The notes under the pieces are model-generated. The model saw only the letters and a program-made list of their open reading frames with translations, made no database searches and was not told the origin of the DNA. A DNA stretch of 64,000 nt from Hellea sp. (GTDB lineage Bacteria > Pseudomonadota > Alphaproteobacteria > Caulobacterales > Maricaulaceae), in the NCBI GenBank assembly GCA_020627655.1, contig JAHDGM010000009.1, positions 1-64,000 on the forward strand, written 5' to 3'. Made by a program: the position numbers and the translations under genes. Below, piece after piece: positions 22,627-44,421 of the stretch (position 1 is its first letter; every line of letters starts with the position of its first letter).

Positions 22627-23571
22627 TTATCCTTTTAGTTTTTCGGCAAAGGCTTCAAGACTTTCCGGAGAGTTTAAAGCCGCCCCATCTACACCCTTAA
22701 CGATTCTCCGCAACATCACGGTCAATACTTTACCACAACCCGGTTCCGCGAAACTTTCTATGCCATTTTCCGCCATCCATTCAATAGATTCGCGCCATCG
22801 CACGCGGCCTGTAACCTGAGTTACCAGATCGTCCCTAATCTGATCAGTGTCAGTTGTAGGACGCGCAGTAACATTGTTGACAACCGGCAGGCGCGGTTCG
22901 GCTATGACTGTATCCGCAAGCGCATCTTTCATCGCGCTAGCAGCAGGCGCCATCATATCGCAATGAAACGGGGCTGACACTTGCAGCATCATAGCTTTTT
23001 TAACACCCATTTCTCGCGCAGCTGCGGCAGCTTTTTCAACAGCGGCTTTCTCTCCTGACAAAACGATTTGCCCCGTCGCATTGTCATTTGCAATCTGGCA
23101 GATACCGACTTCCTGCCCTTTTAAAACGGCAGCTTCAGCATCTTCAATTGAAGCTCCTAGCAGGGCTGCCATAGCACCTGCCCCGACAGGAACTGCCGCC
23201 TGCATTTCATTTCCGCGAAGTCTTAGAAGCTCTGCCGTCTTTGCAAGCGGTATAGCGCCGGCAGCGCAAAGAGCTGAATACTCACCTAAGGAATGTCCCG
23301 CGACAAATTTCGCGGCCGTTACATCGACTTCGAACTCATCTTTTAAAGCCCGCATAGCGGCAATGGATGTTGCCATTAAAGCTGGCTGTGCATTGGACGT
23401 TAAAGTCAAATCCTCAATAGGACCAGCCCACATTAGTTTTGATAAATTTTGACCCAGCGCGTCGTTTACTTCTTGAAACGCGGCCTTTGCAGACGGAAAG
23501 GCATCGGCCAATGACTGCCCCATGCCAACAGACTGACTGCCCTGGCCAGGAAATATAAATGCGAAATTCAT
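22627..23571 (-). CDS. fabD: Malonyl-CoA:ACP transacylase
   Basis: Loads malonyl groups onto ACP for fatty-acid synthesis. It opens with FIFPGQGSQSVGMG, has the nucleophile serine in GHSLGEYSAL (about 93-102), and a later SAPFHCDMM block with the catalytic histidine. At 314 residues it is complete. It is the first gene of the leftward fabD-fabG-acpP-fabF run, diverging from the coiled-coil gene across a 125-bp region that holds a CtrA-like site. Confidence 0.96.
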   Translation of the reverse strand: MNFAFIFPGQGSQSVGMGQSLADAFPSAKAAFQEVNDALGQNLSKLMWAGPIEDLTLTSNAQPALMATSIAAMRALKDEFEVDVTAAKFVAGHSLGEYSALCAAGAIPLAKTAELLRLRGNEMQAAVPVGAGAMAALLGASIEDAEAAVLKGQEVGICQIANDNATGQIVLSGEKAAVEKAAAAAREMGVKKAMMLQVSAPFHCDMMAPAASAMKDALADTVIAEPRLPVVNNVTARPTTDTDQIRDDLVTQVTGRVRWRESIEWMAENGIESFAEPGCGKVLTVMLRRIVKGVDGAALNSPESLEAFAEKLKG

Positions 23572-23631
23572 GCTCGCTCATTCTCCATTTTGTTGAATAG
23601 TCTATATTAAAACGCGCTTTTAACGGGATGT

Positions 23632-23646
23632 TTAAGGCTTCGTTAA
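23632..23646. promoter_or_regulatory. CtrA-like binding site between fabD and the coiled-coil gene
   Basis: TTAA-GGCTTCG-TTAA is an exact TTAA-N7-TTAA motif, the consensus for the cell-cycle regulator CtrA in Caulobacter and relatives. A third TTAA lies at 23620 with an 8-base spacing. The site is 50 bp before the coiled-coil gene start and about 60 bp before fabD, suitable for either promoter. Binding is inferred. Confidence 0.55.
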
Positions 23647-23696
23647 GCCTGTGTCTTCATTAAATTAAAAACGCGAATCTATCGGAACCGATTCCT

Positions 23697-25616
23697 ATGT
23701 CAATTTTTAAGCGATTTTCGAATAAGAAAACCGGGGACAAGTCGAATGAAGCTGAAGAAACAGTACTCGACGAAACGGCTTCTTTGACTGCAGGCGATGG
23801 TTTTGACCCTTTTACTGATATTCCAAAAGACGAAGAAGATGCCATGCCTTCCATCAGCTCTCTGACAGAGCAAGAGCAGAATGTCATAAGATCCATCCTT
23901 AACGATGAGAAAACTCCCAGATCCGATACTAATAACAACACAGATTCCCAGCTAGAGCCCTTCGTAGACGACCCGGTAAAAACCAAAAAATCCGTTGACG
24001 ACCTGCTGAGTGACGAAACCTATAAAACAGCACTCAACATTCTCAAAGGTGATGATAAATCTGAACATGGCGATGAGTCGACTCAACAAGCCGATCAGCA
24101 TGAAATTCAAACCCCCGATCCTATCGATATTCGAACCGTTGCAATTAAACCCTCAAATGTGAATTACGCCACCATGTCTGTAGATCACGACATGGACGTT
24201 AAAGACGGCGAACTAGATGAAATTGACAATCAAGACGTCACAACGAAAGACGAAATAGAAATGGCAATTAACGAAGACGACAATCAAATCGCAACTCAAA
24301 AGGACATAGATTCCGAAATGAATGAAACTGACCATAGCGAAGCTGAAACTGAAATTTTACAGCCAGATATAGCGCCTGATCTTGTGGCCCCTGTCACAAG
24401 ACCTACACCATCAACAGGAAAGCGTGTAAATCTTGGCGAAATGCGGACGAATATCGCGAGAATTACGACAGATATTGAGCAGGGAGAAGCCCTTTATCGC
24501 CGCGCGCAACAGCGCGCGGAAACCCTTAATAGCTTCATCGAAAGGGCCGAAGTAGATTTCTCGTTACTTGATCGCCTCGAGCCAGAGAACCGTGCGCTAA
24601 AATCTGAAAAACGCATGCTGGAGTCCGAACTGGAAAAACGACAAATAAAACTGGGGCAGTTAACCTCTTCCCTCGAAGACCTGCAGAGACGCTACGGCGA
24701 TGCTCAAAGCGAATTAGACGCCACGCAAAGCAAATTGGCTCAAAGCGTCAAAAACTTCGAACATGCTGAGAGAAATATTCAGGAGCTGAGTAAACGCCAG
24801 GAAGAATATCGTTTAAGAAATGATAGGACGGAAACTGACCTTGAAGTTGAAAAACGCGAAAACATGAGTTTGCGAAAAAAAATCACTGAAATTACCGAAC
24901 AACTTGACTTCGTAACCAATGAGAAACTCAGTTTTGCCAAGCAAATCGAAACCCTTAAAATTGATGTTACAGATCAAACGCAAAATCGTGAAAAATTACG
25001 GGACCAATTATCCGATTTACGTAATGCCTTTTCCGAAGCTCAGCGACAGAATACACAAATGAAAGGCGAAATAACTGGCGTTCACGAAGACATACGCGGT
25101 TTCAAAACCCAATATGAGTTCAACATTCTGAAGCGGGATGAGCGAATTGCTGATTTGGAAGCAAAAATTGTTGAGCTTCATGATACTTTACGTGTTAAAG
25201 AAAACATCATTGAAAGCACAGCTAGAGATATGTCGGTTCTTCGTAAAGAACGCACGACTCAGGAACTTGAACGCGAACGGCTTGAGAAAAATCTGCAACA
25301 ACAAAGCGGACAACTTCATTCAGCTGAAGAAGAATTGTTGAAATCCAAACAATTCGCTCATGATTTGGACCAGAAATACCGCGAGGTAGCGGCAGCCTTA
25401 TCACTCAATTCACAAAGAAGACAACCATCACAAGCGGCCGCTGAACCAGATATCTTACCAAAGTCTGATGATGCCCCCGCTGCTGAAGCCCAGATGGCAC
25501 CAGCGGCGGAGTTGATTACACGCACACAAAGTAAAGGGGTTCCCCAAGACCCTGTGACGGATATCGAAGATATGCTGACCGACTATACATTAGGCCTTCG
25601 TGCAAATCTGGATTGA
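23697..25616 (+). CDS. Large coiled-coil protein with acidic N-terminal region
   Basis: A 639-residue protein I cannot assign to a family. Residues 1-10 are basic; about 15-240 form an acidic, low-complexity, probably disordered region rich in Asp, Glu, Asn and Gln. A segment starting GKRVNLGEMRTNIARI (about 242-257) leads into some 300 residues of heptad-like, charged helix (about 260-565). A short Ala/Pro linker and a C-terminal conserved-looking DIEDMLTDYTLGLRANLD end it. There are no membrane segments or signal peptide. The layout recalls cytoskeletal or polar scaffold proteins such as crescentin-like filaments, but this is only an analogy. A CtrA-like box lies 50 bp upstream, and the ribosomal rpsF operon follows. 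Confidence 0.72.
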   Translation: MSIFKRFSNKKTGDKSNEAEETVLDETASLTAGDGFDPFTDIPKDEEDAMPSISSLTEQEQNVIRSILNDEKTPRSDTNNNTDSQLEPFVDDPVKTKKSVDDLLSDETYKTALNILKGDDKSEHGDESTQQADQHEIQTPDPIDIRTVAIKPSNVNYATMSVDHDMDVKDGELDEIDNQDVTTKDEIEMAINEDDNQIATQKDIDSEMNETDHSEAETEILQPDIAPDLVAPVTRPTPSTGKRVNLGEMRTNIARITTDIEQGEALYRRAQQRAETLNSFIERAEVDFSLLDRLEPENRALKSEKRMLESELEKRQIKLGQLTSSLEDLQRRYGDAQSELDATQSKLAQSVKNFEHAERNIQELSKRQEEYRLRNDRTETDLEVEKRENMSLRKKITEITEQLDFVTNEKLSFAKQIETLKIDVTDQTQNREKLRDQLSDLRNAFSEAQRQNTQMKGEITGVHEDIRGFKTQYEFNILKRDERIADLEAKIVELHDTLRVKENIIESTARDMSVLRKERTTQELERERLEKNLQQQSGQLHSAEEELLKSKQFAHDLDQKYREVAAALSLNSQRRQPSQAAAEPDILPKSDDAPAAEAQMAPAAELITRTQSKGVPQDPVTDIEDMLTDYTLGLRANLD

Positions 25617-25793: not shown

Positions 25794-26147
25794 ATGTCTC
25801 TATACGAGCACGTGATCATTTCACGTCCAGACATTTCTCCGACACAAATTGAAGAAAATGTCGCAAATCTAAGTAAAAAAGTTCAAAATATGGGCGGCTC
25901 AGTTGAGCGCGTTGAATATTGGGGACTACGCAACCTGGCTTATCGCCTGAAAAAGAACCGTAAGGCTCATTATAATCTTCTGCAAATCAGCGCAGAACCA
26001 AAAGTCATTCACGAAATCGAGCGTCAGCACCGTATCAATGAAGACATTTTGCGTTATATGAGCATTCGCGTAGATGATTTCAGCGATGATGCCTCACCTA
26101 TCCTTGCCAAGCGCGAAGAGCGTAAGCGCAGAGAACGGAGAGATTAA
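25794..26147 (+). CDS. rpsF: 30S ribosomal protein S6
   Basis: Binds the central domain of 16S rRNA together with S18. The 117-residue protein starts [18 protein letters not shown] and contains the family block [20 protein letters not shown] (about 42-61). It ends in the usual basic tail. It is the first gene of the rpsF-rpsR-rplI operon. Confidence 0.97.
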
Positions 26148-34860: not shown

Positions 34861-34875
34861 TTAACCTTTCGTTAA
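34861..34875 (+). promoter_or_regulatory. CtrA-like binding site upstream of the HU gene
   Basis: TTAA-CCTTTCG-TTAA, followed by CC, matches the full CtrA consensus TTAA-N7-TTAACC exactly. It lies 74 bp before the HU start codon, in a 264-bp region that also contains an inverted repeat, CCCC/GGGG, just upstream. Regulation is inferred from the motif only. Confidence 0.55.
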
Positions 34876-34948
34876 CCAATTCCACTAGGATGTTTATTAA
34901 CGGCCATTGCCAATCAGGGTAGGCCAAAACCTTTGTAAGGGGTACGTT

Positions 34949-35215
34949 ATGAACAAGAAAGAACTTGTGGCTGCTATCGCTGAGAGTTGCGGGACAACTC
35001 AGGCCCAAGCGGGCGAATTTGTAAATGCATTTTGTGACACCGTTGTCGGCCAGTTAAAGCAAAATAACAATGTTGCTATTCCAGGCTTTGGCCAGTTTGT
35101 CGCAAAACACCGTCCTGCGCGCGAGATGCGCAATCCTGCTACCGGGAAACAAATGATGGCTAAGGCGAAAACGTCTGCTCAGTTCAAGCCAGCAATTGGT
35201 CTTAAAGATCTTTAA
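34949..35215 (+). CDS. hup: DNA-binding protein HU
   Basis: An 88-residue nucleoid protein that bends DNA. The start MNKKELVAAIAE, the GFGQF turn (about 47-51) and the DNA-contacting arm RPAREMRNPATGKQM (about 56-70) are typical. I start at 34949, with AAGGGG upstream. The gene stands alone and is followed by a strong terminator. Confidence 0.96.
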   Translation: MNKKELVAAIAESCGTTQAQAGEFVNAFCDTVVGQLKQNNNVAIPGFGQFVAKHRPAREMRNPATGKQMMAKAKTSAQFKPAIGLKDL

Positions 35216-42271: not shown

Positions 42272-42757
42272 TTATTCTTCTTCGCCTTTAGGCTCTTCAG
42301 CAGGCGCTTCATCAGCGGGCGCCTCGGCAGCTTCCGCTTCCGCGGCTTTTGCAGCTTCTTCCGCAGCCTTAGCAGCTTCCTCAGCCGCCTCTTTAGCTTC
42401 CGCTTCAGCCGCTTTGCGAGCTTCTTCGCGTTCTTTTTTCTCTTCAATCAAAGCCAGAGCTTTTGCACCAGGCTTAGCTTTATTCGGATTATTACCAGGT
42501 TTGAAGTCCCAAAGACCGGCTTGACCGAGAAAACGAGCAACGCGGTCAGTTGGGCGAGCGCCTTTACCTAGCCATTCTTTGACCTTTTCAACATCGAGCT
42601 TTACGCGGTCATCGCTGTCTTTTGGCAGCATCGGGTTATATGAACCAACGCGGTCAATAAAGCGACCATCACGTGGCGCGCGGCTGTCAGCCACAACAAT
42701 ACGGTAATATGGACGTTTTTTGGCGCCGTGACGGGCCAGACGAAGTTTAAGTGCCAT
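42272..42757 (-). CDS. rpsP: 30S ribosomal protein S16 with Ala/Glu-rich tail
   Basis: The first 85 residues ([19 protein letters not shown] and the SYNPMLPKD block) are a standard S16, which binds 16S rRNA during early assembly. The rest, about 75 residues, is an alanine- and glutamate-rich, probably helical then disordered tail ending PKGEEE, giving 161 residues. It follows ffh at 30 bp. rimM and trmD, which often come next, are not here: a terminator and the M16 genes follow. Confidence 0.95.
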
Positions 42758-42787
42758 GAGTTTTTCCTTAATTAAATGACGTTTAAA

Positions 42788-44362
42788 TTACTTTTTTAAT
42801 TTCGGACCGCCGAGACCCGGCAATCCTCCACCCAGTCCAGGCAACTTACCGCCGCCTAACCCAGGTAATCCCTTGGGCAAACCAGCCTTGCCCATTTGTT
42901 GTTTCAATTCTTCGAGCATAGCAGGGTCCATATCAGCCGGATTTGGCATATTCCCGCCCTTCATGCCCTTTGGCATTCCCGGCATACCGCCCATCATCTG
43001 GCCCATAAGGCCTGCCATACCGCCCTTACCCAGCTTCTTCATCATATCGCTCATCTGCCGATGCATTTTCAGAAGTTTATTTACTTCCTGCACACTCATA
43101 CCTGATCCAGCCGCGATGCGTTTCTTGCGAGAAGCCTTTAATAAGGATGGATTCTTGCGCTCTTCGGGCGTCATCGATGAAATGATAGCCTGTTGTTGTT
43201 TCAAGAGACGATCATCAACCCCGCCCATCTGGTCCATTTGCTTTTTCATTTTACCCATGCCGGGCATCATTTTCATAAGGCCGCCAAGACCGCCCATTTT
43301 TTGCATTTGGCCAAGCTGTTTTCCAAGATCTTCAAGATCAAACTTGCCCTTTTCCATTTTCTTGGCAAGTTTTTCAGCCTCTTTCTGATCTATGACTTCC
43401 GCAGCTTTTTCAACCAGTGAAACGACATCACCCTGCCCTAAAATTCGTCCGGCCAGGCGCTGCGCGTCAAAGGCTTCAAGGCCTTCAAGCTTTTCGCCTG
43501 TGCCCAGAAATTTGATTGGCAGTCCCGTAACGGCGCGCATGGAAAGCGCCGCGCCGCCGCGGCCATCACCATCTATTCGCGTAAGAACCAGGCCGGTCAA
43601 AGGCAGTTGCACGTGGAACCGCTTGGCTGTCTCGACTGCGTCCTGACCTGTCAGAGCGTCAGCAACTAATAATGTTTCGATTGGATTGGTAGCTTTGGCA
43701 ATGTCTTCGACCTCAGCCATAAGCTCGTCATCGATCGTTGTCCGGCCAGCTGTATCAAGGAAAACAACATCATAACCGCCTAACTTACCTTGCTCCATGG
43801 CGCGATTGGCGATCTCGCGGGCCGTTTGGTCCTTAACAATCGGGAGAAAATCAACCCCGGCCTGGCCTGCCAGAATGCCCAGCTGCTCCATAGCCGCCGG
43901 ACGACGTGTATCCAGCGATGCCAGAAGAACCTTTTTCTTTCCCCGTTCTTTCAGGAATTTCGCGATCTTACCAGTCGTCGTGGTCTTACCTGACCCCTGT
44001 AGACCAGCCATAAGAATAGCAACAGGCGGACGTCCCGCCAAGTTAAGCTCAGATGCCCTGGCAGCTTCTAACTGCGCATCCTCATCCTCGCCAATGACGC
44101 CTCCCAACATTTTAACAAGGCCGTCATGAACGATTTTGACAATTTGTTGACCCGGCTTGATGGACTTGATGACTTTCTCACCAACCGCTTCTTCTTTGAT
44201 AGAGGCAATAAAGTCTTTAACGACGGGAAGAGCCACATCGGCTTCTAGTAATGCAATACGAATTTCTCGTAGCGCCGCTGACACATCCTTTTCGGATAGG
44301 CTGCCGCGCCCGGTTAAACCGTCAAATACATTACCAAGTTTATCGCCTAAAGCTTCAAACAT
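42788..44362 (-). CDS. ffh: Signal recognition particle protein Ffh
   Basis: GTPase that binds signal sequences and SRP RNA for co-translational membrane targeting. The N and G domains carry GLQGSGKTTTTGK (about 108-120), DTAGR and TRIDGDGRGG. The M domain is rich in Met and Gly (about 340-524), with GSGMSVQEVNKLLK for RNA binding. I start at 44362 (MFEALGDKL), with GGAG upstream; longer forms lack support. It is 524 residues. Confidence 0.96.
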   Translation of the reverse strand: MFEALGDKLGNVFDGLTGRGSLSEKDVSAALREIRIALLEADVALPVVKDFIASIKEEAVGEKVIKSIKPGQQIVKIVHDGLVKMLGGVIGEDEDAQLEAARASELNLAGRPPVAILMAGLQGSGKTTTTGKIAKFLKERGKKKVLLASLDTRRPAAMEQLGILAGQAGVDFLPIVKDQTAREIANRAMEQGKLGGYDVVFLDTAGRTTIDDELMAEVEDIAKATNPIETLLVADALTGQDAVETAKRFHVQLPLTGLVLTRIDGDGRGGAALSMRAVTGLPIKFLGTGEKLEGLEAFDAQRLAGRILGQGDVVSLVEKAAEVIDQKEAEKLAKKMEKGKFDLEDLGKQLGQMQKMGGLGGLMKMMPGMGKMKKQMDQMGGVDDRLLKQQQAIISSMTPEERKNPSLLKASRKKRIAAGSGMSVQEVNKLLKMHRQMSDMMKKLGKGGMAGLMGQMMGGMPGMPKGMKGGNMPNPADMDPAMLEELKQQMGKAGLPKGLPGLGGGKLPGLGGGLPGLGGPKLKK

Positions 44363-44393
44363 AATTGCTCCAATAACCGCGCAACGCCAAAAT

Positions 44394-44421
44394 CTCCGGT
44401 GGATGTACACATCGACCGGAG
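44394..44421. repeat. 28-bp palindrome upstream of ffh
   Basis: CTCCGGT-G-GATGT, then AC, then ACATC-G-ACCGGAG: a 7-bp and a 5-bp perfect helix separated by one mismatch. It lies 32 bp before the ffh start, so it probably forms part of its promoter or 5' leader. There is no T-run. Confidence 0.6.

Follow-up and report, generated by a model that had tools for sequence, protein, structure and literature searches.

The locus and its distribution

The 64,000-nucleotide window of Hellea sp. DNA analyzed here carries an open reading frame (ORF) for a 639-residue coiled-coil protein, which we call X, lying divergent from the gene fabD. The same genome encodes a shorter homologue of X, which we call P. 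The region upstream of X and its orthologues conserves a CtrA-type box and GANTC sites, and the protein itself is organized around a long, well-conserved rod. We found no published description of X or P in the literature that we searched, which was mostly open-access. The window is contig 5 of the 89 contigs that make up the 2.59 Mb host genome, and a search with X turned up metagenome-assembled Hellea sp. and uncultured Caulobacterales as close named relatives. By family we mean the host's family within the Caulobacterales, which is Maricaulaceae in the GTDB lineage (the NCBI taxonomy has Hellea in the Robiginitomaculaceae, Maricaulales). The label g1 denotes the host's genus, and G- and L-numbers denote genomes and loci, with G000 the host genome. 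The features of the locus are as follows.

22627–23571, minus strand: fabD (malonyl-CoA acyl carrier protein transacylase), divergent neighbor; Pfam Acyl_transf_1, 6e-29
23620–23623: extra TTAA half-site, with a spacer of 8 bp to the box; from the sequence
23632–23646: CtrA-type box TTAA-N7-TTAA, TTAAGGCTTCGTTAA; from the sequence and its footprint in orthologues
23675–23679: GANTC (CcrM) site GAATC, at -22 in most g1 genomes; from the sequence
23690–23694: second GANTC site, GATTC, adjoining the start codon; from the sequence
23697–25616, plus strand: X, 639-residue coiled-coil rod protein, ATG at 23697; ORF
23697–23741, plus strand: N-terminal tip of X, MSIFKRFSNKKTGDK, hydrophobic-cationic and kept in orthologues; possible membrane anchor
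23772–24416, plus strand: acidic head of X, mostly disordered, residues 26–240, net charge -39; from charge and structure prediction
24435–25400, plus strand: rod of X, residues 247–568, a single predicted helix of 322 residues; structure prediction
24558–24596, plus strand: heptad break 1, phase +3, near residue 289, beside AEVDFSLLxRLEPENR; hydrophobic periodicity
25101–25139, plus strand: heptad break 2, phase +4, stutter-like, near residue 475, at FKTQYEFN; hydrophobic periodicity
25551–25592, plus strand: conserved C-terminal helix of X, residues 619–632, IEDMLTDYxLGLR; structure prediction and conservation
25794–26147, plus strand: rpsF, downstream neighbor of X; from the sequence

An earlier note on this DNA had described most of this arrangement, and its description holds: the exact TTAA-N7-TTAA box 50 bp upstream, with a third TTAA half-site, precedes a 639-residue protein that has an acidic, disordered N-terminus and about 300 residues of coiled coil, and fabD is divergent. 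To that description we add P, the paralogue, and the GANTC sites. In each of the 30 orthologue loci examined, fabD and X are divergently oriented, 115–293 bp apart in the 16 loci where the distance was measured. The downstream neighbor rpsF is present in g1 and G010 and is not found there in G028, G021, G036 and G025. Since the adjacency of rpsF varies, the stable link is that between fabD and X.

A first search of 61 relatives located X in g1 and some sister genera. A profile built from 14 X proteins and run over 137 genomes of the family gave matches in 38, of which 31 were strong (450 bits or more) and fell in the genera g1, g2, g9, g13 and g17. Weak X-like matches in five g19 genomes and two g12 genomes were not counted as X, those of g12 falling at the P gene. 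Across the class, the same profile matched the host genome alone among 289 genomes. Searches for P matched 11 of 299 genomes in the order and 38 of 137 in the family. Among the genomes searched, X and P are thus confined to the host's family.

A conserved CtrA-type box precedes X

The exact box ends 50 bp before the X start codon. The window holds four exact boxes where 1.72 are expected, and the whole host genome holds 51. Because 9 of 100 shuffles of the window also yield at least four boxes, a single box means little: by itself it is weak evidence and not significant, and it is conservation across orthologues that makes it significant.

Promoter counts cover 30 of the 31 strong X orthologues (G358 was left out), with 120 bp of upstream sequence each. 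An exact box is present in 25 of these 30 regions, which represent five genera (g1 8/9, g2 3/3, g13 3/5, g17 0/1, g9 11/12). The spacing between TTAA halves shows a clear preference, with N7 found 25 times, N6 nine times, N8 four times and each of the other spacings from 0 to 15 at most three times; the N6 instances seen in g9 arise from a third half-site following the box. Within g1 the TTAA halves are constant, whereas variation occurs at five of the seven positions between them. Dinucleotide-shuffled versions of the first 14 X upstream regions each have a 0.1–4.4% chance of containing an exact box. The box lies 62–90 bp before the X start in 23 of the 25 box-bearing loci; the remaining two have it at 113 and 115 bp.

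Two control sets were compared with these regions. No exact box occurs in the 14 fabD–rpsF spacers of X-less relatives, which are those of 30 rpsF loci in which fabD was seen (G051, locus L073, is without fabD and was left out), and none occurs in 28 rpsF upstream regions. Kept before X orthologues and absent from both control sets, the box therefore belongs with X. The earlier proposal that fabD may share the control gains no support in X-less relatives, given the count of 0/14 in their fabD spacers.

We also noted two of the other exact boxes in the window. One, TTAACCTTTCGTTAA at 34861–34875, lies before a small ORF (34907–35215) that by eye seems to encode an HU-type DNA-binding protein. 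Another, at 42772–42786, lies between two minus-strand ORFs at 42788–44410 and 42272–42757, which by eye resemble the signal recognition particle protein Ffh and the ribosomal protein S16, respectively.

GANTC sites and the cell-cycle regulators

In Caulobacter, GcrA is recruited by CcrM-methylated GANTC (PMC3667746, in excerpt). A GANTC site lies within 50 bp before the start in 24 of the 30 X upstream regions, compared with 3 of 14 and 0 of 13 rpsF upstream regions and 9% of random 50-mers (from 11 X loci). In g1 the site is at -22 in seven of nine genomes and at -7 in three of nine. GANTC is depleted in the window: base composition predicts 248 sites and 94 are observed, in keeping with the use of CcrM methylation by this genome. 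The host genome contains ctrA, as two contig-end pieces (82% and 88% identity), together with gcrA (170.6 bits) and a CcrM-type RAMA domain (77.1 bits).

The earlier note had proposed CtrA control of X and named two findings that would refute it, a box not conserved upstream of orthologues and a genome lacking ctrA. Neither was the case, and the conservation of the box and the presence of ctrA make CtrA control a strongly supported prediction. Joint control of X by CtrA and GcrA/CcrM is likewise well supported as a prediction from the promoter sequences. The combination of a CtrA-type box with GANTC recalls the polarity genes of the CtrA/GcrA-CcrM regulated class, to which podJ, tipN and mipZ belong; X differs from these in having neither a transmembrane helix nor a known domain.

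Architecture of X

We modeled X as an AlphaFold2 (AF2) monomer on an alignment of 14 sequences, obtaining a mean predicted local distance difference test score (pLDDT) of 64.8 and a predicted template modeling score of 0.21. Residues 247–568 are predicted to form one helix, with pLDDT mostly 75–94. Short helices are predicted at 58–68, 100–105 and 107–116, a C-terminal helix at 619–632, and the remainder is disordered. Wherever complete protein ends are available, the genera share the hydrophobic-cationic N-terminal tip and a C-terminal motif around [DE]-[YF]-x-[LF]-G, with variants in some g9 proteins. No transmembrane helix was detected in X, the hydropathy maximum being 0.35.

The rod keeps its length in most orthologues, and no residue of the host X rod stands opposite gaps in more than 10% of the 28 aligned orthologues. 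Hydrophobic periodicity places two breaks in the heptad pattern, +3 near residue 289 and +4 near residue 475, the second being a stutter, and both coincide with highly conserved motifs. In the g13 proteins (L016, L017, L137, L146 and L147) the rod is longer: 136 or 225 extra residues follow position 496 and apparently repeat a conserved segment.

No match to X above cut-off was found in Pfam or NCBIfam, and none among solved structures at E 0.01. The best named NCBIfam matches are to SMC/Rad50 coils, at 39.1 bits against a cut-off of 567, and cover the coil only; no SMC ATPase head domain was detected in X with Pfam. We rejected these and the matches to eukaryotic coiled-coil Pfam families as generic coil similarity, none being above cut-off. 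For X a single weak tail-fiber match (0.056) was found in PHROGs, and P has weak tape-measure matches there (best 7e-6, 24.9 bits); coiled coils match such families generically.

Bagchi et al. (2008) defined rod-domain proteins by a coiled-coil rod of more than 80 residues and the lack of a transmembrane or known domain (PMC2680258, in excerpt). By that definition X would belong with FilP and the other bacterial rod-domain, or intermediate-filament-like, proteins, from which its sequence family differs in having been found only in one family of Caulobacterales. The tip of X, where hydrophobic residues at the very N-terminus give way to lysines, resembles the membrane-targeting consensus of bactofilins, MFSKKKK (PMC12448750, in excerpt). 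The bactofilin BacA is a beta-helix protein, whereas X is a coiled coil whose tip may bind the membrane in a comparable way.

P is a paralogue of X

The gene for P (G000:C28:5216-6478) adjoins a transaldolase gene and encodes 422 residues from an MGLF start. Aligning the X rod with P by hhalign gives a probability of 98.9 over 307 columns and a score of 130, whereas 60 heptad-block permutations reach at most 48 (0/60). The P rod is, on this profile comparison, homologous to that of X. Both heptad breaks are shared, lying in P near residues 90 and 270 with the same signs and at matching places, and the two proteins have similar hydrophobic-cationic N-terminal tips. P differs in its short head, the rod starting at about residue 44, and in its C-terminus. 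Against solved structures P gives seven weak matches, the best at 0.036, to generic coils.

P is present in 27 of the 31 strong-X genomes, and the four that lack it are 65–88% complete. Twelve P upstream regions were examined (leaving out L033, where P is incomplete); nine contain GANTC and two contain an exact box. Exact TTAA-N7-TTAA boxes upstream of P were seen in G017, an X-less genome, and in G009 (L020, L030). One genome encodes a second P-like rod protein besides P (G025:C14:289-1434, a 512-residue frame, 188 bits).

Comparison with crescentin

Among the intermediate-filament-like proteins of Caulobacter, crescentin (CreS) has been studied most, and the earlier note had suggested comparing the coiled coil of X with crescentin-like families. 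No such relationship can be demonstrated for X or P. Against the crescentin family PF19220, which has a cut-off of 100 bits, X reaches 11.0 and P 22.1. As a CreS set we used 20 of the 22 loci above that cut-off (L110 and L111 were left out), and we take the genomes bearing them as Caulobacteraceae from a 2025 survey (PMC12700997, in excerpt). By hhalign, X scores 34.9 against these sequences, a value reached by 4 of 60 permuted profiles. P scores 36.5, reached by none of 60 permuted profiles, yet we do not count this score as homology because a reversed P control scores higher, at 43.5. The breaks in the CreS coil (+4 near 258 and +4 near 405) are placed differently from those of X.

The X rod is also shorter, at about 322 residues compared with about 364 for CreS, cytoplasmic intermediate-filament rods having about 308 (PMC10873595, in excerpt). 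The long acidic head and the conserved C-terminal helix further mark X off from crescentin. We considered P as a crescentin orthologue by synteny and rejected it, since the transaldolase gene that neighbors P is absent from all 22 CreS loci.

Discussion

The cytoskeletal or scaffold role suggested in the earlier note is plausible. We favor, with moderate confidence, the reading that X is a cell-cycle-timed, membrane-associated, intermediate-filament-like scaffold that works with P. In the mechanism that we infer, CtrA would bind the TTAA-N7-TTAA box before X and GcrA would act at methylated GANTC downstream of it. X would then be made at a set stage, which by analogy with Caulobacter would run from S phase to predivisional cells. 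The protein would form a parallel coiled-coil dimer through its rod and polymerize or bundle, probably with P. The hydrophobic-cationic tip may hold X at the inner membrane, and the conserved C-terminal helix may dock a partner.

Several observations weigh against this picture. At the level of the protein, coiled coils also have many non-filament roles, and a monomeric AF2 model carries no information on oligomers. Five of the 30 X upstream regions are without an exact box, the sole g17 genome among them, although two of the five (G003 and G267) keep the box by eye with one half-site base changed. Every g1 and g2 box has TTAAG as its second half-site and every g9 and g13 box has TTAAC; the Caulobacter CtrA consensus has C at this position, unlike g1 and g2. 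Only 14 of the 30 regions have the extended GcrA motif YGAKTCK (PMC7987155, in excerpt) in the 50 bp before the start. In the host, the ctrA upstream region has no exact box, though half-sites and GANTC are present, and the ccrM upstream region has GANTC and no exact box; CtrA sites have been predicted upstream of ctrA itself in most alphaproteobacteria (Brilli et al., 2010, PMC2877005, in excerpt). P also occurs without a strong X, in G017 (99% complete), G410, G417 and four g12 genomes, and in four g19 genomes each with a weak X-like match only. Finally, the genomes within a genus are related, and the orthologue counts are not independent.

Less likely, in our judgment, is that X forms no filament and is instead a polar landmark or hub like TipN, PodJ or PopZ, with the acidic disordered head and the C-terminal helix gathering partners at the pole and CtrA/GcrA timing its delivery. 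The CtrA/GcrA-type sites before X, the long acidic head with its short predicted helices (58–68, 100–116) and the conservation of the C-terminal helix would all suit such a protein. The rod, however, is the best conserved part of X and keeps its length in most orthologues, unlike a flexible spacer, and P retains the rod though its head is much shorter. Moreover, TipN and PodJ have transmembrane segments and X has none.

A different view of the promoter, which we consider improbable, is that the box serves fabD, coordinating the synthesis of fatty acids and membrane with the cell cycle, and that X is incidental. The box does lie between the two genes, and their divergent arrangement is invariant in the loci examined. 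Against this view are the box-free fabD–rpsF spacers of X-less relatives and the position of the box, 62–90 bp before the X start in most box-bearing loci. Still less probable is that X is a division or chromosome-partition accessory, a coiled coil of SMC or Zap type whose rod serves as a spacer: CtrA/GcrA-type control is typical of division genes and the best named NCBIfam matches are SMC/Rad50 coils, but those matches cover the coil only and fall far below cut-off, there is no head domain, and no division or partition gene was recognized beside X in the loci listed. Least probable of all, and already disfavored, is a divergent crescentin that makes cell curvature. The shared overall layout, in which a short tip precedes a long rod with a stutter, and the weak PF19220 match of P speak for it; against it stand the low PF19220 score of X, the permuted and reversed controls, the different coil breaks and a 2025 survey that, in the excerpt used, limits creS within the Caulobacterales to the Caulobacteraceae (PMC12700997).

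The scaffold reading that we favor has a more specific form, which we regard as doubtful at present: X and P would together build a second intermediate-filament-like cytoskeleton, of which they are the two subunits and which evolved in the host's family independently of crescentin. P would supply the basic rod, and X, a longer duplicate brought under the control of CtrA and GcrA/CcrM, would let the filament be remodeled once per cell cycle. The prediction for the X promoter is precise enough to be tested in a single experiment. A separate, strongly conserved pair of rod proteins in a sister family, one of them apparently controlled by CtrA and GcrA/CcrM, would point to repeated evolution of such scaffolds, and in the X/P pair their assembly could be tied directly to the cell-cycle clock.
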